Part shown: positions 1,951 to 44,556 of the stretch, piece by piece
How positions within the stretch are numbered: position 1 is the stretch's first letter
Layout of the letters: every line of letters starts with the position of its first letter
Assembly: GCA_020049575.1 (NCBI GenBank)
Contig: JAIFKM010000036.1
Span: forward strand, 1-45,832
Source of the DNA: Desulfobulbaceae bacterium
GTDB lineage: Bacteria; Desulfobacterota; Desulfobulbia; Desulfobulbales; Desulfocapsaceae
Reading direction: 5' to 3'
Length of the DNA: 45,832 nt
Notes under the pieces: generated by a model
What the model was told of the DNA's origin: nothing
Seen by the model: the letters and a program-made list of their open reading frames with translations, nothing else
Databases searched by the model: none
Translations under genes and position numbers: made by a program

Positions 1951-3114
1951 TCAGGGTAGACGCAGGCGAACCAATCGGGTGAGCAGGAACCATGCACAAA
2001 TTGTGAAGGTGGAGGCAGCCACGCCCAGCCAGCCAAGTGTGTTGATCTTGTCCGGCCAGTCGAGCGAAATCGCCCACATTGCAGCGGCTCCAGTAATAAA
2101 GAAGATAAAGACCATGAAGGCCGAGGCAGCGCCGACATCCGTATCAACCTGTTCCAGTATCAGGTTATTGCCGGGGGGGCGAGTGAAGGAGAAACTGAAG
2201 GTGAAGAGCCACATGGGCAGCGCTATTCGCCACGGAAGCGGCAGCCAGTGCGTGGTCATCAACGTGGCCGAGCAGATCATACCGAGATAACCGATCGGCA
2301 GCAGCCGCATCAGCGGAACATGCTTGACACTCCGGGAAAATGCTATCGGCGCCACCATGAAGGCGAAGGAATTCAGGGCAAAAAAATAGCCGTACTGCCG
2401 TTCGCTGTAGCCGAGCTGGGTGATATAAATGTCGGCGGAGGCCGCGATAAAAGCAAAAAACGGGATGCCCATAACGGCATAGGTCAGGGCCAGGAGAATA
2501 TAACGCGAATTCCGAAACAGACGGAGATAACCGAAAACCGCCCGGGACAGGGGTTCGCTTGAAGGACTCGGCAGCGACTCCTCCATGCGCAGGACACCAA
2601 CCAGGGTTACAGCGCCCATCAAGGCCTGAACCAGAAAAACCAGGCGCCAGGAAGACAGCTCGATGATCCAGCCGCCAATGACTGGCGCAAGCATCGGGGC
2701 TGCCGCCACGATTATACCGATCTGGATAAAAATCCGTTGCCTGAGCTGACCGTCAAAACGATCTTTACAGATGGCCAGGGCAATGGCGGAGGCCGAAGCA
2801 GCCCCCGCGCCCTGCAGGGTCCGGGCCAGGATCATCACCTCGACACTGCCAGCCAGTGCACAGAAAAGGCTGGCAAGCACGTAGAGGCTTATCCCTGCCA
2901 AGAGCGGCGGGCGTCTTCCAAAGCGGTCCGACAATGGCCCGTAGATCAGCAGGAAACAGCAATACGTGAAAAAGAAACAGACCAGGGTCAGGTTGACAGT
3001 CGCCAGAGGCTCATGCCATTGTTCGACCAGCAGGGGAATGGCTGCCAGATACATGTCAGTCGACAGTGGCGGGAAAGCCGAAAGCAGGGCCAGGAGCCCG
3101 ATCAATTTTTTCAT
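1951..3114 (-). CDS. Bcr/CflA-family multidrug MFS transporter
   Basis: A 387-residue hydrophobic protein with about twelve membrane segments. The N-terminus (KKLIGLLALLSAFPPLSTDMYLAAIPL) carries the STDMYLPA-like signature of the Bcr/CflA drug:proton antiporters. The loop between helices 2 and 3 has MFS motif A (LIYGPLSDRFGRRPPLLAG). Helix 5 has the antiporter motif C-like stretch AAAPMLAPVIGGWI. Length is normal. By family it would be an inner-membrane exporter for small drugs, dipeptides or amino acids. The ribosome binding site at 3114 is weak (GGTGTGAA). The gene stands alone: the aminotransferase downstream is 250 bases away. Confidence 0.88.
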   Translation of the reverse strand: MKKLIGLLALLSAFPPLSTDMYLAAIPLLVEQWHEPLATVNLTLVCFFFTYCCFLLIYGPLSDRFGRRPPLLAGISLYVLASLFCALAGSVEVMILARTLQGAGAASASAIALAICKDRFDGQLRQRIFIQIGIIVAAAPMLAPVIGGWIIELSSWRLVFLVQALMGAVTLVGVLRMEESLPSPSSEPLSRAVFGYLRLFRNSRYILLALTYAVMGIPFFAFIAASADIYITQLGYSERQYGYFFALNSFAFMVAPIAFSRSVKHVPLMRLLPIGYLGMICSATLMTTHWLPLPWRIALPMWLFTFSFSFTRPPGNNLILEQVDTDVGAASAFMVFIFFITGAAAMWAISLDWPDKINTLGWLGVAASTFTICAWFLLTRLVRLRLP

Positions 3115-3183
3115 TTCACACCGTCCGGAACAGGCCTGTCAGAGCCCTGACCAGACACTCGCATTTTCAGCTTCTCTTTTCGC

Positions 3184-3558
3184 TCAATGCCCCTGGCCGA
3201 TCGAATGCTGCAGCAGTTCTTCAAGCGTTGCATACTCAAGAGAGGCCTCATGGGTCGCCATGAGATCCACGGCAGGGGCCATGCCATTTTCGAGAGCCTC
3301 CTTCCAGCGGGGCGCACACAGGCACCACCTGTCTCCAGGCTCCAGGCCGGGAAAACCATACATCGGCATCGGCGTGGAAAGATCGTTCCCCCTGCTCTTT
3401 GAAAATTCGAGGAATTCTTCAGATACGACGACACAGACACCATGAACGCCGACATCACCCTCAATGACTTCGCAGCTGCCGTCGCGCGTAAAGCCCGTCA
3501 ACGGCTCCATACTACAGATTTCCAGAGGAGTTCCAAGTACATTCTTATGTTCAGTCAT
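3184..3558 (-). CDS. DUF2237 family protein
   Basis: A 124-residue protein that matches the DUF2237 family closely: NVLGTPLEICSMEPLTGF near the N-terminus, then GDVGVHGVCVVVSEEFLEFS, GNDLSTPMPMYGFPGLEPGD, and RWCLCAPRWKEAL. ATHEASLEYATLEELLQH closes it. These cysteines and the GDRWCLCA block are the family hallmark. The biochemical function is unknown. Two in-frame ATGs exist at 3564 and 3558; the GGTGG upstream is only one base from the first but seven from the second, so 3558 is preferred. It is 69 bases upstream of the MFS gene, possibly co-transcribed. Confidence 0.88.
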   Translation of the reverse strand: MTEHKNVLGTPLEICSMEPLTGFTRDGSCEVIEGDVGVHGVCVVVSEEFLEFSKSRGNDLSTPMPMYGFPGLEPGDRWCLCAPRWKEALENGMAPAVDLMATHEASLEYATLEELLQHSIGQGH

Positions 3559-31888: not shown

Positions 31889-32103
31889 AATATTCACCTA
31901 TCTGTTTGAGAAAACAAAAATAAATTCAAAGAAAAAAACTTCCTGCCAGCAACGCGGGTTACATATTGGCAGATCGAATCTTTGCCGTTTGGCGTTGACC
32001 GCAAGCTTGGACGTGCTTCTGAACCTATCGTTGACCAATCCACAATTATATTCACACACTGCAACTGTGTTCTCCGCAGTTTCTGAAGCTTTTTCGCGCC
32101 GGG

Positions 32104-33126
32104 TCAGCGCGGGGGCGGCACGAGGATGCTGCGGTCAAACTCGGCCTGCCAGCGGTTTTCACGATGGTTGAAGGTGCGCACCTGAACCCGATCCGGATAC
32201 AGGTAGAGGGAGTTGCTCCAGATCGTGTCGCCCTTCATGCTATTATTGTGAATATTGATGATCCGATCAGCGTAGATGTTGATGAAGGATGCATAACTGG
32301 CTTCAGTGGGCGGGGTATGGGTATGACCGGACACCCAGAGAAAGACCTGGGGATTGGTGATCAGGAGCGTGTGCATCCAGGCCTCCGGCTGGATGACGGC
32401 ATTGGGACGATTGACATAGTGCCTGAATCTGGTCTGGGTCCCTTGAAGCGGAGGGTGGGCGAAGATGATGGTCGGTTGGTTGCGGTGCCGGAGGAGCTGA
32501 TTGCGGAGCCATGTCAGTTGCGCTTCGCCGATGCCGGTGCCAAAACGATCATGATCGGTGGAGAGAAAAAGGAGAAGGTAACCGCAGATTTCCAGCTTGT
32601 AGTAGTGCTGCTCAAGGCCGAAGGTTTGCCGGAATTTGGCCAGCTTCGCCTGCTGAAAAACAAAGGGGGCACGGATATACCCCCTGGCCGCAAGTGGACA
32701 AGGTGTTTGGAAGTAATAGTCGTGGTTGCCGACAATCGGGGCCAGGGGGTGGCGCAGGTTGCGGAAATAGGTGGTGGCGGCGGCATATTCCCTCTCGGTG
32801 CCGTACCTTTCGGTAAGGTCGCCGACGGCAACAACCAGGGTGACATCCCACCAGGTATTGATCCGCTCCAGCACCGCCTGCTTGGCGGCCAGATTGTTAC
32901 CGGGCAGATGAGGATCGCCGAGAACAACCAGGTGGGCGGGTGCACCGCTGCCAGCAAGGGGATGCCCGGCTCCGCATCCGGAGAGGACGATGAGGGCGAG
33001 CAGAACTGTGACGACTAGCGGCGCAACCGGTCGACCACCGCTGTCAGTGGCGGTCCAACACCAGCCGGTTCTCAACGCCTCAAACACCGTTGCTGCACCG
33101 TTGGCTATCAAATTCAGGGGATACAT
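32104..33126 (-). CDS. Metallophosphoesterase lipoprotein
   Basis: A 340-residue calcineurin-like phosphoesterase. The metal-binding motifs are in order: GDPHLPGNN (D-x-H), VVAVGDLTERY, PIVGNHDYYF, IIFAHPPLQG and VSGHTHTPP, a complete set. A hydrophobic stretch ending LALIVLSGC (lipobox at 48-51, Cys51) suggests lipidation and anchoring in the envelope. The signal is preceded by an unusually long leader of about 36 residues from the only in-frame ATG; the ribosome binding site is poor, so a later GTG or TTG start is possible. It may hydrolyse phosphodiesters or nucleotides; the substrate is unknown. It stands alone, convergent with the hybrid kinase gene. Confidence 0.85.
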   Translation of the reverse strand: MYPLNLIANGAATVFEALRTGWCWTATDSGGRPVAPLVVTVLLALIVLSGCGAGHPLAGSGAPAHLVVLGDPHLPGNNLAAKQAVLERINTWWDVTLVVAVGDLTERYGTEREYAAATTYFRNLRHPLAPIVGNHDYYFQTPCPLAARGYIRAPFVFQQAKLAKFRQTFGLEQHYYKLEICGYLLLFLSTDHDRFGTGIGEAQLTWLRNQLLRHRNQPTIIFAHPPLQGTQTRFRHYVNRPNAVIQPEAWMHTLLITNPQVFLWVSGHTHTPPTEASYASFINIYADRIINIHNNSMKGDTIWSNSLYLYPDRVQVRTFNHRENRWQAEFDRSILVPPPR

Positions 33127-33459
33127 ACTAAACCCATTGTGTCATAAACCCATAAGGTGGCAAGCATGGAATGATGGTCGCAACCCAAGCCCGGGTCTGA
33201 ACGGAGGGCAAGGGTGGTGGCGCGATCGCCGATCTCGATGTCCGGGATTGAACACTTACTGGAGTTATACACTTTTTTCGCTTTTTCTGCCGCTTGGCTG
33301 CTTCGTTCAAACAAGTCTTACCAGTGGACGCGAATAAGCTCGTTACCACTTGCAAGAGCAGCTTCCTTGAAAATTGCCTCAGGTTTATATTGCTTCTTCC
33401 CCAAGCCTGGCCATATCTCTCAGCAATTTGTTTTTTCAGAAGATTCGGGCTTAAGGGAT
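33127..33459. other. Intergenic region with a short coding-like fragment
   Basis: No full gene is seen. On the minus strand, ending near 33326, the frame reads WPGLGKKQYKPEAIFKEAAL then ASGNELIRVHW and a stop. That looks like the end of a real protein, but a stop lies immediately upstream, so it is at best a remnant of unknown origin. Confidence 0.25.
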
Positions 33460-33736
33460 AAGCTTAACTTGCGGTTTTACTTAAATGGTTGAGATTGCCA
33501 GTACCATCCTCTTAAAATTTTTTCTGCAAAAAACAACTCTGCAGAAAAAGGAATTTTCCGGAAAAGACCTTCATGAGTTGATATTGACCTCGTTACTGAA
33601 TGACCACCGGTTGGTCCAACGCCGGCTATTGGTTTCAGCGCAGAATAATTGCGTAAGCTGTAGGAAAAATGTAGTATTGACGCGTTGAATGGGATGGCCC
33701 TTCGTTGGAAAGGGCTTTTTTGTGAAGCCCGAAGAA
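33460..33736 (+). repeat. Imperfect dispersed direct repeat, copy 1
   Basis: This segment is by eye about three quarters identical to 40357-40637, in the same orientation and nearly collinear (offset 6,897 to 6,900 bases). The longest identical runs include GTTGATATTGACCTCGTT at 33577-33594, against 40477-40494. A partial third copy is at 35587-35662. Copy 1 ends just before the amidohydrolase gene. Its end can fold as a terminator. On the minus strand both long copies share a peptide reading, LKPI.G..PTGGHS.TRSIST. Confidence 0.8.
33697..33721 (+). terminator. Terminator-like hairpin at end of repeat copy 1
   Basis: GCCCTT and AAGGGC enclose a seven-base loop and are followed by six Ts. No plus-strand gene lies upstream, so it would stop read-through or end a short RNA transcribed from the repeat itself. 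An overlapping alternative hairpin GGGCTT/AAGCCC is conserved in copy 2. Confidence 0.5.
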
Positions 33737-35987: not shown

Positions 35988-36274
35988 TTTCCAGCGAGGC
36001 TGGCGTCAGACAAAGCTTTGACCACTGATGGTATTTATATCAGGCTTTTACAATAACTGTTATCGGAGGAGGTATACTCGGGCATTCTGGTCATGTGCTC
36101 CATACATCAACTCATCCAATCACAAGGAGGAATCAAGAAGGCAGGAGCCCTCGATAAACAGCCTGCTTTACTCCCAAATCAAGTTCGTGCTAAACCCTGG
36201 TTCTGCAGTCTGCAGGTACGTCAAGATTTCTTTCATATGTTCCACTACCGCCACCCATTAGAAAGGAGAATCGT

Positions 36275-37435
36275 ATGCGTATCCCCGAATCAAACTTCGC
36301 CCTCACCGTCCTGATCTCAAGCGCTCTCACCCTCTCTGTTCTGCTGCAACCAGCCCAGGCAGCTGATCCGACCGGCGAAGGTACACTCTCCATCGTTGCC
36401 TGGCCAGGCTATATCGAGCGTGGCGAAACTGACAAAGCATATGACTGGGTGACCGAGTTTGAAGGGGCCACAGGTTGCAAGGTCACGGTCAAGACGGCCG
36501 GTACCTCAGATGAAATGGTGTCGCTGATGAATCAGGGCAGCTACGATTTGGTCACCGCCTCCGGCGACGCCTCGTTGCGGCTTATTGCCGGTAAGAAGGT
36601 CCAGTCAATTGACATTGCCAAAATCCCCAGTTGGAAACGGCTCGATGAACGTCTGCAGAACGCCCCCTGGCATACCGTCAACGGTGTCCATTATGGTGTG
36701 CCCTTTGTATGGGGCCCCAATGTACTGATGTACAACTCCGCCGTGTTCCCGACAGCACCTACCTCTTGGGCCGTGGTCTTCGAGCCGCAGAATCTGCCAG
36801 ACGGTAAGGCGAATAAAGGTCGCGTTCAGGCCTATGACGGAGCGATCTACATGGCTGACGCTGCTCTCTACCTGATGACCGCAAAACCTGAACTGGGTAT
36901 CAAAGACCCCTACGAACTGAACGAATCGCAGTACCAGGCAGTGCTCGATATTCTGCGTAAACAGCAGCCGATGATCCATCGCTATTGGCACGACTACAAC
37001 GTACAGATGTCCGACTTCAAGAACGAAGGCGTCGTCGTTTCGGGCGCTTGGCCGTTCCAGGTCAACATGCTGCAGGCAGAGAAGCAGCCGATCGCCTCCG
37101 TCGTTCCTCAAGAAGGCGCAACCGGCTGGGCAGATACGACTATGATGGGAGCATCGGCGAAAAACCCAACGTGCGCTTACAAATGGCTGGAGTGGTCACT
37201 GAGCGACAAGGTCCAAGCCCCAGTTTCCGAGTGGTTCGGCGCCAATCCTGGCGTACCTGAGGCGTGTAAGGCAAAAGCTCCGGGAGGATCCGACTTCTGC
37301 ACCAGTAACGGGTTTAACAACTTTTCTCAGATCAAATTCTGGAAGACCCCCCAAGCAACCTGTGCCACGCATGGAACCTGCGTGCCTTACAGCCGCTGGA
37401 CCCAGGACTACATCGCGATAATGGGCGGCCGCTGA
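36275..37435 (+). CDS. ABC transporter solute-binding protein, PotD/YdcS-like
   Basis: A 386-residue periplasmic binding protein. The signal peptide ends at QPAQA (about residue 29). GTLSIVAWPGYIERGE starts the mature domain, with the class II binding-protein core (TGCKVTVKTAGTSDEMVSLM, YGVPFVWGPNVLMYN, GVVVSGAWPFQVNML). The best match is the putrescine/spermidine PotD group, particularly YdcS-type proteins next to YdcTUV. The C-terminus has several cysteines (EACKAKAP.., FCTSNGF.., ATCATHGTC) that may form disulfides. AAAGGAG lies six bases upstream of the ATG. It heads a four-gene transporter operon and likely binds a polyamine or a similar cationic ligand. Confidence 0.9.
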   Translation: MRIPESNFALTVLISSALTLSVLLQPAQAADPTGEGTLSIVAWPGYIERGETDKAYDWVTEFEGATGCKVTVKTAGTSDEMVSLMNQGSYDLVTASGDASLRLIAGKKVQSIDIAKIPSWKRLDERLQNAPWHTVNGVHYGVPFVWGPNVLMYNSAVFPTAPTSWAVVFEPQNLPDGKANKGRVQAYDGAIYMADAALYLMTAKPELGIKDPYELNESQYQAVLDILRKQQPMIHRYWHDYNVQMSDFKNEGVVVSGAWPFQVNMLQAEKQPIASVVPQEGATGWADTTMMGASAKNPTCAYKWLEWSLSDKVQAPVSEWFGANPGVPEACKAKAPGGSDFCTSNGFNNFSQIKFWKTPQATCATHGTCVPYSRWTQDYIAIMGGR

Positions 37436-37571
37436 TTGGTCTCTGCCGGCCTGGCCCCGAAGATCGGTTCAGGTCGTTGCAGGTTTTTGGCGACTAATGA
37501 TTCTGAAGCTCAGATGAATTCGCGCCTTGGCCAAAGGCATTTTCAACTCCAACTCATCCAGGATTTTCGGT

Positions 37572-38591
37572 ATGCCCTTTGCTGTCGAACTTTTAAATGT
37601 TTCTCGTTCTTACGGCAAGGTCCGTGCGCTTGACCATGTCACCGTCGCCATCAAAGAAGGCGAATTTTTTTCGATGCTTGGCCCGTCCGGTTCGGGCAAA
37701 ACGACATGCCTGCGGCTGATTGCTGGTTTCGATCAACCATCCACCGGTACTGTCCTGATCCAGGGACACGACGCAACGGGCCAGCCGCCTTACGAACGAG
37801 ACGTCAACACCGTTTTTCAAGATTATGCACTCTTCCCGCATATGACCATTTTGGAGAACATCGGCTATGGACTGAAGGTCAAGAAAGTTCCTCGGCAGGA
37901 AGTACGGGAGAGGGCGCTACAGGCCCTGGAGATGGTCGCCCTCCCCGATTTCGGCCACCGCAAACCGTCGCAGCTCTCAGGTGGCCAGCGACAACGCATC
38001 GCCCTGGCGCGAGCCCTGGTGAACCGCCCAAAAGTTCTCCTACTCGATGAACCACTGGGTGCCCTCGATCTCAAACTGCGCGAACAGATGCAGATTGAGT
38101 TGAAGCGACTTCAGCGGCAGCTTGGCATCACTTTTATCTATGTCACCCACGATCAGGGCGAGGCCCTGTCGATGTCGGACAGAGTTGCGGTATTCAATGC
38201 GGGAAAGCTCGAACAGGTCGACACACCTCAGAATCTCTACCGACGACCGACAACGATATTCGTTGCTGGATTTGTCGGCACGGCCAACGTAGTTAGGAGT
38301 GAAACCTCCCGATTGATCACCGAGAGGGACACGCCTTTCTCGATTAGACCGGAGCACATCACTCTCATTTTGGAGGGAAGCAAACCGCGGGATATCCAGA
38401 TACTCGGCCGGTTGATTGATATCCAGTACTACGGAGCCCACAGTCGTTATGAAGTCGAAGTGGAGGCCGGCCAGCTGTTCTCCGTCCAGGTGGCCAGCGA
38501 CCAACTGGATGCGACAGTGCTACCGAGTGTCGGCGCCCAGGTGATGATCGGCTGGGACCGTTCATCGATGATCTCTCTCGATGAATGTTAG
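37572..38591 (+). CDS. ABC transporter ATPase, PotA/YdcT-like
   Basis: A 339-residue ATPase. Walker A is GPSGSGKTT at 37-45, Q-loop [12 protein letters not shown], signature [15 protein letters not shown], Walker [12 protein letters not shown], and H-loop [12 protein letters not shown]-terminal TOBE-like regulatory domain (about 235-330) closes it, as in spermidine/iron/sulfate importers. ATG at 37572 ([10 protein letters not shown]) is chosen; CAGGA lies nine bases upstream, and the extension back to 37527 is not family-like. It energises the transporter built from the flanking genes. The permease starts nine bases after the stop. Confidence 0.93.
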
Positions 38592-38600
38592 GGGGCGACC

Positions 38601-39533
38601 ATGACCCATGCAACTGCCGATACAAACCTTCCGCGCCATTTCTCCACCTACCTTTACAGGCACGGCACCCTGTATCTGCTTCTCCTGTTGACCCCTCCGT
38701 TGCTCTGGTTCGGCATTGTATACCTCGGGTCCCTGTTCGCCCTGCTAATCCAGAGCTTCTATACCTTTGACGATTTCTCAATGACGGTTCTGCCCCGGTT
38801 CACCCTGAAGAACTACCAGGGGCTATTTGCGGCCGCCAACCTCGACATTGTCCTCCGCACATTTTCCATGGCGGCATCAGTCTCAGTCTTCTGCGCCTGT
38901 CTCGGTTTTCCCATCGCCTACTATATGGCACGCTACGCCACCGGTTGGCAAAGAGGCTTTTTCTATATCGCCGTCCTGCTGCCGATGTGGGCCAGCTACA
39001 TCGTCAAGGCCTACTCCTGGACCGTCATCCTGGCAAAAGGTGGTATCGTCTACTGGTTCATCGACAAAGCTGGCCTGACTCCCCTCATCGAGGCCCTGCT
39101 TGACATCCCCTTTCTCGGCGGCAACACCCTGTCCACATCACATCTCGGCCGTTTCCTGGTCTTCTCCTATATCTGGCTACCGTTTATGATCCTGCCGATA
39201 CAGGCCTCCATCGAGCGGATCAACCCAAACCTGTTGGCTGCCTCGGCCGATCTCGGGGCCCGACCGTCCCAGACCTTCACAACGGTTTTACTCCCCCTGG
39301 CCACCCCCGGGGTCATCGCCGGCTCGATCTTCACCTTCTGCCTGACCTTCGGCGATTTCATCATCCCAACATTAGTCGGCCCTTCCGGCCTGTTCATTGG
39401 CACCATGGTCTACACCCAGCAGGGAGCCATCGGTAACATCCCGATGGCAGCCGCCTTCACGGTCGTCCCCATCATAGTGATCGGCCTCTACCTGATATTC
39501 GCCAAACGCATGGGGGCATTCGATGCACTCTGA
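38601..39533 (+). CDS. ABC transporter permease, PotB/YdcU-like
   Basis: A 310-residue inner-membrane protein with about six helices. A long N-terminal helix ([33 protein letters not shown]) is followed by the BPD_transp_1 core, with [20 protein letters not shown] as the cytoplasmic EAA loop that contacts the ATPase. It matches the first permease of polyamine importers. Translation begins nine bases after the ATPase stop, with GGGGGCGACC before the ATG. Its last 11 bases overlap the start of the second permease. Confidence 0.93.
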
Positions 39534-40332
39534 CAGAAAAAGTCCACTCTTGCTCAGGATCGTCGCCTTCGGTGGAATCATCTTCCTGCACTTCCCGATC
39601 GCGGTAATTATCATGTACGCCTTCAACACCGAAGAGAGCGCTTTCAGCTTTCCGCTGCAGGGGTTTACTTTCAGGTGGTTTGCAGCGGCCTTTGAGCGCC
39701 GTGACATCGTCGATGCGATTATCCTCTCACTGAAGGTGGCAACCATGGCGACCACTATCGCCATGGTTTTGGGAACCATGGCGGCCGCAGCACTCTACCG
39801 GAAAAAATTCTTCGGCAGAGAAACAATCACCCTGATGTTCATCCTTCCCATCGCCCTGCCAGGCATCATCACTGGTGTCGCCCTGCTCTCGGCCTTCAGG
39901 ATGGCAGGCTGGGAACTCAATTACTGGACTATCGTCGCCGGCCATGCCACATTCTGCGTAGTTGTCATCTACAACAACGTTATTGCCCGTTTCCGCCGGA
40001 CCTCCCAGAATCTGATCGAGGCATCAATGGATCTCGGAGCCGATGGTATCCAGACCTTCTTCCACATCATCCTGCCGAACATCGCTACCTCCCTGCTGGC
40101 CGGCGGCGTACTGGCCTTTGCCCTCTCCTTTGATGAGATCATCGTCACCACCTTCACAGCCGGTCCCGAGCGCACGCTACCGATTTGGCTGCTCAACCAG
40201 TTAACTCGCCCACGTGACGTGCCGATCACCAACGTGGTGGCGGTGATGGTGATGGCGGCGACCATGATTCCAATCCTCGCGGCCTACTACCTGACCCAAG
40301 GAACCGAATCGATTGAGGGCAGTAGTAAATAA
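39523..40332 (+). CDS. ABC transporter permease, PotC/YdcV-like
   Basis: A 269-residue second permease. About six helices are predicted ([20 protein letters not shown] at the start), with the EAA loop [20 protein letters not shown]. It pairs with the first permease to form the channel. The start overlaps the end of that gene by 11 bases, typical of translational coupling. Last gene of the operon; it ends 25 bases before repeat copy 2, and no clear intrinsic terminator is seen. Confidence 0.93.
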
Positions 40333-40356
40333 TGCCATGCCCTGCTACTCAGGAAG

Positions 40357-40637
40357 AGTCTTAGCTTGCAGCTTTGCTTAAATGGTTAAGATTGGCAGCA
40401 ACATCCTCTTTAATTTTTTCTACAAGACTTAACCACTCTGAAGAAAAAGGAATTTATCGAAAAAGACATTCATGGGTTGATATTGACCTCGTTGTTGAAT
40501 GACCGCCGGTTGGTCTAATGCCGGTTATTGGTTTCAGAGTAAAAATATTTGCGGAAGTTGTCGGGGAAAGGTAGCTTTGATGCATACGATCGAATGAGCA
40601 TTCGTTGGAAGGGGCTTTTTGGGGAAGCCCGAAGAAG
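40357..40637 (+). repeat. Imperfect dispersed direct repeat, copy 2
   Basis: Collinear with copy 1 at 33460-33736. It begins TTAGCTTGCAGCTTTGC, continues through the identical core GTTGATATTGACCTCGTT at 40477, and ends in GGGGCTTTTTGGGGAAGCCC. The terminator hairpin seen in copy 1 is mutated, but the GGGCTT/AAGCCC alternative stem persists. Together with copies 1 and 3 it frames the amidohydrolase and ABC operon. The remaining 40638-40791 lies before the NfeD-SPFH fusion and shows no gene. Confidence 0.8.
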
Positions 40638-40791
40638 GCGACCTTATCACCTATCATCCCATCATCCACCCCAGCACTCCTCTTCGCGTCCCGACGGTAT
40701 ATTGCCTGATGACGATTTTTGAGCTTATGCTGGATTTGCTTGGCCGGACATTGATGTCAGTGAGTTCACACCAACCATTTCGGAGAATCGC

Positions 40792-41544
40792 ATGGACGTG
40801 CAATACTGGCATTGGCTCGTTTTTGGATTGATCCTCATCATTGCTGAGGTCTTCATCCCAAGCTTCACCATTTTCTGGTTCGGTCTCGGAGCGTTGGCCG
40901 TAGGCGGCATTCTCTGGATTTCGCCCATGGAACTGACTGCGCAACTCCTGCTCTGGGCATTTTTTTCCGCCCTCCTTACCGCGTTCTGGTTCGTGGTCAT
41001 GAAGCCGCGCATGCTCGACAAGACCCTGGTTCAGACGTCGTTGCGATCCATCATCGGCGAAATGGATCTTGACGACGCCCTGTCCTCTCGAGACAGAATC
41101 AAAGCCAGACTGAAGGAAACCATCTCCGACGACATTTCGGACTGGGGTATTACACTCAAGACCGTGGAGATTCAGGACATCAACCCATCCGACACCATGC
41201 AGCACGCAATGGAGGAGCAGGCCGCTGCCGAACGGGCCCGCCGGGCTACGGTGACCCGGGCCGAAGGCGACAAGACTGCGGCCATCCTGCAGGCCGACGG
41301 TCGCCTGGAAGCTTCCCGCCGCGACGCCGAGGCCAAGGTCGTGCTGGCAGAAGCCGATCAGGCAGCCATCAACAAGGTTTCCGAAGCCAGCAAGAGCGGA
41401 GAATTGCCCCTGGTTTTCCTGCTCGGCCAGCGTTACGTGGACGCAATGCGCTCCATGGCAGAGGCGAACAACGCCAAGATCGTGGTCCTTCCGGCCGATC
41501 TGCCGGCAGCCGTGCGTGGGATCATGGGCACGCTGGGGAAATAG
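40792..41544 (+). CDS. NfeD-SPFH (stomatin) fusion protein, apparent deletion product
   Basis: A 250-residue hybrid. Residues 1-77 are a short NfeD membrane module: HWLVFGLILIIAEVFIPSFT, then IFWFGLGALAVGGILW and LLLWAFFSALLTAFWFVVMK, ending in KPRMLDKT. From about residue 79 it becomes the second half of an SPFH/stomatin protein: LVQTSLRSIIGEMDLDDALS, WGITLKTVEIQDINP, and the Ala/Glu-rich coiled coil ERARRATVTRAEGDKTAAIL. The NfeD soluble domain and the SPFH N-terminal anchor with the first half of the band-7 domain are missing. In most genomes nfeD and the stomatin gene are adjacent and separate, so this probably arose by an in-frame deletion. GGAG precedes the ATG. It may still act in membrane microdomains. 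Confidence 0.85.
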   Translation: MDVQYWHWLVFGLILIIAEVFIPSFTIFWFGLGALAVGGILWISPMELTAQLLLWAFFSALLTAFWFVVMKPRMLDKTLVQTSLRSIIGEMDLDDALSSRDRIKARLKETISDDISDWGITLKTVEIQDINPSDTMQHAMEEQAAAERARRATVTRAEGDKTAAILQADGRLEASRRDAEAKVVLAEADQAAINKVSEASKSGELPLVFLLGQRYVDAMRSMAEANNAKIVVLPADLPAAVRGIMGTLGK

Positions 41545-41667
41545 CGCAGACAACCTTACGCCTCCCCTTGTCTGAAAAGAGCGTTTCGCTGTTTCATGCC
41601 AAGGTCTCAGTTTCGATATCGAGGGCTGAAGCTGAGGAAGAACCGGCAGTAGAGGAGACCAAGTCCA

Positions 41668-42612
41668 TTGATTCAACTAAATGTCGATCTTCTCCCAGCC
41701 CGTATCGTGCAGCGGGGGTCTCTCGTCCTGGCAAGCCTGGCTGTCTTCTTCGGAGCAAGCTTCACTATTCTGCCAATAGCTGCCCTCTTCAAGGCTGTGG
41801 CCGAAGAAGGATGGAGTCATGATGCCGCGCAGGCCGTTTTCTGGTTTCTCATTCCCTGCACCTTGTTCCTTGCCATTCTGCTCTGGGGGCTCAACCAGTT
41901 TGTTTTCCAGTTAACTATTCTCCTTGATGCGCAGAGAGTTCGTTGGCAAAAACGGACACTACTCGGTACAACCGAGGTCGTCGAGCCACTCGCTGGTTTT
42001 CTGGGTATTTGCGGACAGACTCGCCACGACAGTGATGAAGGGACTTTCTATGAATTGCTGCTGCAGCATCGAGAAGCCGGAAAAAACGTCCTTCTTTATC
42101 AGGCCGATGAACCGGAACAATTGCATGACCTCTGGAAGCGCTACTGTCGAGTCTTCAAGGTGAAACCCGTTGAGTTTCTGGCGCCCACTGAGCCTTTCTC
42201 CCGTGAAATTGAAGATCTGGGCCGTTCTCTCATCTCCCTCATTCAAGAAGGCAGGCTGGTCCTTCCGAATCCGGGGCAACCTCCACCAAATATAATGGTG
42301 GAGCAAACTGCTGAACATGCCCTTATCCACATTGCCAAAAAGAAGTCTTTGCTGGTAAGCAAAGAAGAGCTGCGCCTCGGCTTAGACGGCGGGATCTCAA
42401 TTCCGGTTGATACGGTCGATAGCATCACTATTGAGCCCTCACGACCGCTTTCTACCAAGCCTTGGTTGAAGCTCGTTTTCAGCAAAAAGATATCAACAGA
42501 AACGTTGGATCCCGTAACATTTTCACTCTCTATGCCTCTAGTGGAAGGATTGTCTCTTGAGTCGCTACAGTGGCTACAACGGTTTGTTCTGCGCAGTCTT
42601 GCAGGGGTTTAA
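41668..42612 (+). CDS. Uncharacterised two-helix membrane protein
   Basis: A 314-residue protein with two N-terminal membrane helices (LVLASLAVFFGASFTILPIA at about 19-38; AVFWFLIPCTLFLAILLWGL at about 56-75) and a large cytoplasmic domain. The latter has beta-rich segments (FVFQLTILLDAQRVRWQKRT, GISIPVDTVDSITIEPS). The layout suggests a PH-like or DUF-type domain, but no family is recognised. TTG at 41668 is the start: AGAGGAG lies ten bases upstream and no ATG exists nearby. It follows the NfeD-SPFH fusion by 123 bases and may be in its operon, consistent with a membrane-associated role. Confidence 0.65.
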   Translation: MIQLNVDLLPARIVQRGSLVLASLAVFFGASFTILPIAALFKAVAEEGWSHDAAQAVFWFLIPCTLFLAILLWGLNQFVFQLTILLDAQRVRWQKRTLLGTTEVVEPLAGFLGICGQTRHDSDEGTFYELLLQHREAGKNVLLYQADEPEQLHDLWKRYCRVFKVKPVEFLAPTEPFSREIEDLGRSLISLIQEGRLVLPNPGQPPPNIMVEQTAEHALIHIAKKKSLLVSKEELRLGLDGGISIPVDTVDSITIEPSRPLSTKPWLKLVFSKKISTETLDPVTFSLSMPLVEGLSLESLQWLQRFVLRSLAGV

Positions 42613-43929: not shown

Positions 43930-44556
43930 ATTCAATCGATCCTGCTGGAATAACGGGGATATCCTAACGCATTTCGTGCTTGCCGATTACCATCACCGGT
44001 AATAAGGGACACCGTCGAAAAGGCTGCGAACAAGATTCGCAGCCATGGGCGTGCTGACCGAGCATGAGGATTGGATTCGTTTCACGCATTACTTGAGTTT
44101 TCTTTGATGCGAGTACTCGATTCGTAGGCAAAGGTAAATTGCTGTTGCCTTTGCCAAGAGCCTTTTTTGCCGTAGCATCAAGCCATGTGGGTATCAGGCA
44201 GTGGAGATCAAATGTAGTAGCCGTCGCCGCATCCGTTTCCAAGGAGCAATCTTGAGGTATGCCGACAGAATTTAATCTGCCGGCATACCTTTTTTCCACC
44301 TCTTCGCAAATCCCATGACATCCGGTCCACCCGAGCAAAAGCAGCAAAATACCCCCGCCATCGCCGGATTAATCACACCCATACGGAACACGCATTGCCA
44401 AGTGTGAAATCAATCAATACAGGTCATTCTCAGGGCTCGTTTTCACTGGGACATTTCACATAAAAACGAAAGGGAAGATTTGGGAATATCTGAAAAAGAT
44501 TCGAATCTATTTTTACCCTTTTACTTGCGTTGCATGTTTTGCCAAACTTACAGCCA
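43930..44556. other. Gene-poor region after corA
   Basis: No credible gene is found. A 127-codon minus-strand open frame (43964-44347) spans the strong terminator at 44255 and has no family likeness or ribosome binding site, so it is not accepted. A GCTGCGAA/TTCGCAGC hairpin at 44020-44043 is present. Confidence 0.4.
44255..44295 (+). terminator. Strong Rho-independent terminator downstream of corA
   Basis: AGGTATGCCG-A-CAGA pairs with TCTG-C-CGGCATACCT around an ATTTAA loop (fourteen pairs, one mismatch) and is followed by a run of six Ts. It lies 326 bases after the CorA stop. It ends either that transcript or a small RNA made from the intervening DNA. Confidence 0.8.

Follow-up and report, generated by a model that had tools for sequence, protein, structure and literature searches.

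A probable loss-of-function NfeD-SPFH chimera left by a microhomology deletion in a putatively transferred operon of a Desulfobulbaceae bacterium

The 45,832-nucleotide stretch of Desulfobulbaceae bacterium DNA analysed here (the window; contig C189 of a fragmented assembly of 3.06 Mb that is 75.6% complete) carries an ORF at 40792-41544 on the forward strand. Its 250-aa product starts with residues 1 to 77-78 of a short NfeD and continues with residues 114-286 of the QmcA/stomatin-type SPFH protein that is the operon partner of NfeD. With a probability of roughly 0.8, this ORF is a young, pseudogene-like loss-of-function chimera, produced by a microhomology deletion in a transferred operon. 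The fusion is most likely a one-off, broken protein, reflecting ordinary decay and not a new kind of protein.

The 5' part of the ORF (40792-41022, +) corresponds to NfeD residues 1-77, that is, the membrane helices with the OB domain lost, as judged from Pfam, alignment, and modelled helices. The 3' part (41023-41544, +) corresponds to residues 114-286 of a QmcA-like SPFH protein and comprises the second half of Band_7, the helical region, and the C-terminal tail, the membrane anchor and the first half of Band_7 being lost (Pfam, alignment). An earlier sequence-only reading had described NfeD helices joined near residue 78 to the second half of a stomatin-like protein, and Pfam and alignment both agree with it. 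The NfeD_membrane match at fusion residues 9-67 scores 18.8 bits, under the 26-bit cut-off; the intact NfeD of Desulfoprunum benzoelyticum is likewise weak against this cut-off (19.8 bits). Band_7 is matched at fusion residues 78-161 with an E value of 5.6e-17, covering only positions 93-176 of the 176-position profile. In the AlphaFold model, fusion residues 1-70 form confident helices (pLDDT about 75-88) and confidence is low after residue 70, where the intact SPFH protein used as a control is also poor in its SPFH part.

D. benzoelyticum DSM 28570 (G001), a member of the same genus, retains both genes intact. Its nfeD (L038 4188-4640; 150 aa) is separated by 36 nt from its SPFH gene (L038 4677-5537; 286 aa). 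In this pair, the OB domain PF01957, which Pfam names as partner-binding, occupies NfeD residues 85-146, and Band_7 occupies SPFH residues 26-197 (profile 2-176). A global alignment shows 597 nt of D. benzoelyticum (L038 4417-5013 or the equivalent 597 nt) to be absent from the window, the rest of 40349-41731 being collinear. Alignment to L038 places the junction at 41021-41026 (+), in line with the position of about 41026 proposed before, on a 6-bp microhomology: the direct repeat AGACCC has two copies in D. benzoelyticum (L038 4417-4422 and 5014-5019), of which the window has a single one. NfeD residues 79-150, the intergenic gap, and SPFH residues 1-113 are lost, T78 being common to both parts, so that both inner halves are missing as had been suggested. 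The nucleotide identity of the NfeD membrane-helix part to the intact gene is about 97%. The exact loss of 597 nt between AGACCC repeats is the pattern of a classic microhomology deletion, and a deletion origin is strongly supported by the sequence comparison. The sequence-only reading had attributed the fusion to an in-frame deletion within the operon, an idea to which the intact sister locus now gives exact breakpoints. The AGACCC break would be the mark of replication slippage or of microhomology-mediated joining.

The fusion frame stays open because nfeD and the SPFH gene share one frame and the missing 597 nt make up 199 whole codons. Of all 81 exact 6-bp microhomologies that can be paired between intact nfeD and the intact SPFH gene, 46 (57%) would give an in-frame fusion. 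An open frame is thus the expected outcome and no sign of selection. The frame had been taken earlier to suggest continued expression, a conclusion that this proportion and the failure to find the fusion again do not sustain. By eye, a ribosome-binding-site-like GGAG does precede the ATG, here as in D. benzoelyticum.

What the deletion removed bears directly on function. PF01957, present in the intact D. benzoelyticum NfeD, is absent from the fusion (Pfam). The SPFH domain is incomplete, since Band_7 up to SPFH residue 113 is gone, and the hydrophobic segment that forms the protein's own N-terminal membrane anchor has disappeared with residues 1-113. The lost SPFH stretch 27-104 is rich in residues invariant across 19 homologues and, judged by this conservation, the deleted part of Band_7 is the most conserved half of the SPFH domain. 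Among solved structures, the nearest relatives are QmcA and YbbJ, which form an SPFH-NfeD complex in E. coli (PDB 8z5g, 26 chains per protein); each of the two is matched by its counterpart in the intact D. benzoelyticum pair (SPFH, E 4.7e-60; NfeD, E 2.6e-4). QmcA-YbbJ has been described as a cage built of 26 heterodimers (PMC13086221). QmcA-YbbJ, or SPFH1/NfeD1, operons consist of adjacent genes (PMC2636767), as in the intact D. benzoelyticum pair. In contrast, the window has a single ORF containing only NfeD 1-77 and SPFH 114-286. This ORF cannot provide both partners, nor the OB domain, nor the first half of SPFH, and its alignment to QmcA starts no earlier than QmcA residue 110. With the OB domain of NfeD, the membrane anchor of SPFH, and the best-conserved half of the SPFH domain all missing, the fusion is most likely unable to build the NfeD-SPFH cage. 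A gene fusion inside an NfeD/SPFH system also has a parallel in the SPFH5 group, for which an NfeD-protease fusion has been discussed (PMC2636767). However, the window joins the two partner genes themselves, with both inner parts lost.

The operon itself appears to have been acquired, which the sequence-only reading had not noticed. Sequence comparison suggests that the whole block (40349-41731, +), which is inserted after a potC-like gene with its stop at 40332, was laterally transferred, because its nucleotide identity to D. benzoelyticum is 94-95%, non-coding leader included, against mostly 66-82% in the other compared stretches common to the two genomes, because the flanks are unrelated, and because of the clustering in the tree of the SPFH half. 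The block follows a potABC-like cluster ending at 40332 in the window and a carboxylase gene in D. benzoelyticum. The same transporter cluster is found without the block in another genome (G004), where the match covers 36229-40331 only. In the tree, the window and D. benzoelyticum group with loci labelled Desulfovibrionales, Desulfomicrobiaceae, and others (support 96/99), including Desulfovibrionales-labelled MAGs, and stand apart from the copies of several genomes of their own family. That paired NfeD-SPFH genes can move together by lateral transfer is an earlier proposal (PMC2636767). From these comparisons, an ancestor would have gained a QmcA-YbbJ-type operon of a short nfeD and an SPFH gene. 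A 597-nt deletion between the AGACCC repeats, evident against the intact sister locus, then removed the 3' end of nfeD, the intergenic gap, and the beginning of the SPFH gene. The leftover ORF would have retained its start site and frame by chance, and its product would be a membrane-anchored stub with half an SPFH domain and a helical tail.

A recurrent fusion was looked for widely, as had been proposed, and no second case was found. No protein spanning both halves is present among the matches listed in 58 relatives, where it would head the list, or in 395 genomes drawn from the phylum (E 1e-70); samples of the genus, family, order, and phylum amount to about 450 other genomes in all. About 80 loci fetched from species genomes also lack it, and nfeD and the SPFH gene are separate at every fetched locus holding both. 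No recurrent fusion was detected in viral contigs, and plasmids yielded only partial SPFH matches of 60-80% identity and no fusion. In L099, from another genus of the family, a partial copy continues unbroken beyond the breakpoint as far as residue 131, at which the contig stops.

The fusion might instead be expressed and useful, with the NfeD helices anchoring the SPFH helical tail on the former OB-domain side as a minimal scaffold. The retained open frame, ribosome-binding-site-like sequence, and start codon are compatible with this, as are the few non-synonymous changes on the window branch. Polarised against outgroups, that branch carries four synonymous changes and one non-synonymous change, and the D. 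benzoelyticum branch nine and one, with two further changes ambiguous. If all changes on the window branch were neutral after the deletion, the chance of one against four is about 0.016 by a rough hand calculation in which three quarters of random changes are non-synonymous, which would point to a very recent deletion or to a constraint still acting on the fusion. The changes are too few to separate the two, and a recent deletion would require fewer assumptions. Against a useful fusion stand the missing anchor and most conserved SPFH half, the absence of a second case in about 450 related genomes, the in-frame result being the commonest outcome, and a weak scan that found no sigma-70-like promoter 5' of the ORF. 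A useful product is therefore improbable. It is more doubtful still that selection has favoured, in one lineage, a minimal membrane scaffold with NfeD helices tethering the SPFH helical tail in place of the two-protein cage.

A junction artefact, either an amplification chimera or an assembled minority allele in an organism with an intact operon, is also unlikely, if slightly less so than a useful fusion. The assembly is fragmented and incomplete, and amplification chimeras, too, typically show short microhomology. However, a six-base overlap is too short to seed a join by a k-mer assembler, and the deleted 597-nt segment has no match anywhere in the 75.6% complete assembly. The sequence-only reading had pointed to full-length genes elsewhere in the genome, or intact genes at the locus, as evidence to look for. 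No intact pair was found at the locus or elsewhere in the assembly, PF01957 gave no match, and the fusion is the sole match to the NfeD membrane model, with no second NfeD gene; the remaining Band_7 genes are HflK, HflC, and two unnamed. These searches make an intact copy elsewhere improbable within the limits set by the 75.6% completeness and by contig C93, which carries the acetyl-CoA carboxylase gene found ahead of the operon in D. benzoelyticum and stops right there.

As a decayed chimera, the locus would illustrate clearly how a newly transferred operon can decay by microhomology deletion, and would caution against reading selection into an open frame that runs across a gene fusion. If expressed, the fusion would provide a test of how much of the NfeD-SPFH pair membrane scaffolding needs.

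The leader of the block (40349-40636, +; about 290 nt) has no Rfam match. It is about 80% identical to window 33451-33736, which sits 5' of an M20 peptidase gene on the same contig, and parts of it recur in other genera. At the left edge of the block (40349-40400, +) lies a copy of a dispersed intergenic repeat of about 50 nt (about TACTCAGGAAnAnTnTTAACTTGCAGGTTTGCTTAAATGGTTAAGATTGCCA), which occurs at several dozen intergenic places across the family; copies are found at window 33451-33500, L149 18540-18588, L211 1502-1550, and in many family genomes. At two places the repeat lies 5' of a transposase remnant, which we take to be IS91-like from a Zn-ribbon motif and not from a family search. 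An IS91-type element as carrier of the block is unproven, most copies of the repeat being plain intergenic. Adjoining the partial block copy in L099, a region (2740-3291, -) resembles by eye the C-terminal end of a tyrosine recombinase (RPHDLRGYAATYASRSG...HADLSTTQRYPGKV), possibly a trace of the block's movement. Elsewhere in the window, the metallophosphoesterase gene region (32024-33089) is 89-90% identical to G001, G003, and G004, well over the genome background, and may also be transferred or unusually conserved. A 146-nt stretch (44114-44259), a probable recent repeat, has a 98% identical counterpart on a different contig of this genome (G000:C84:4128-4273).
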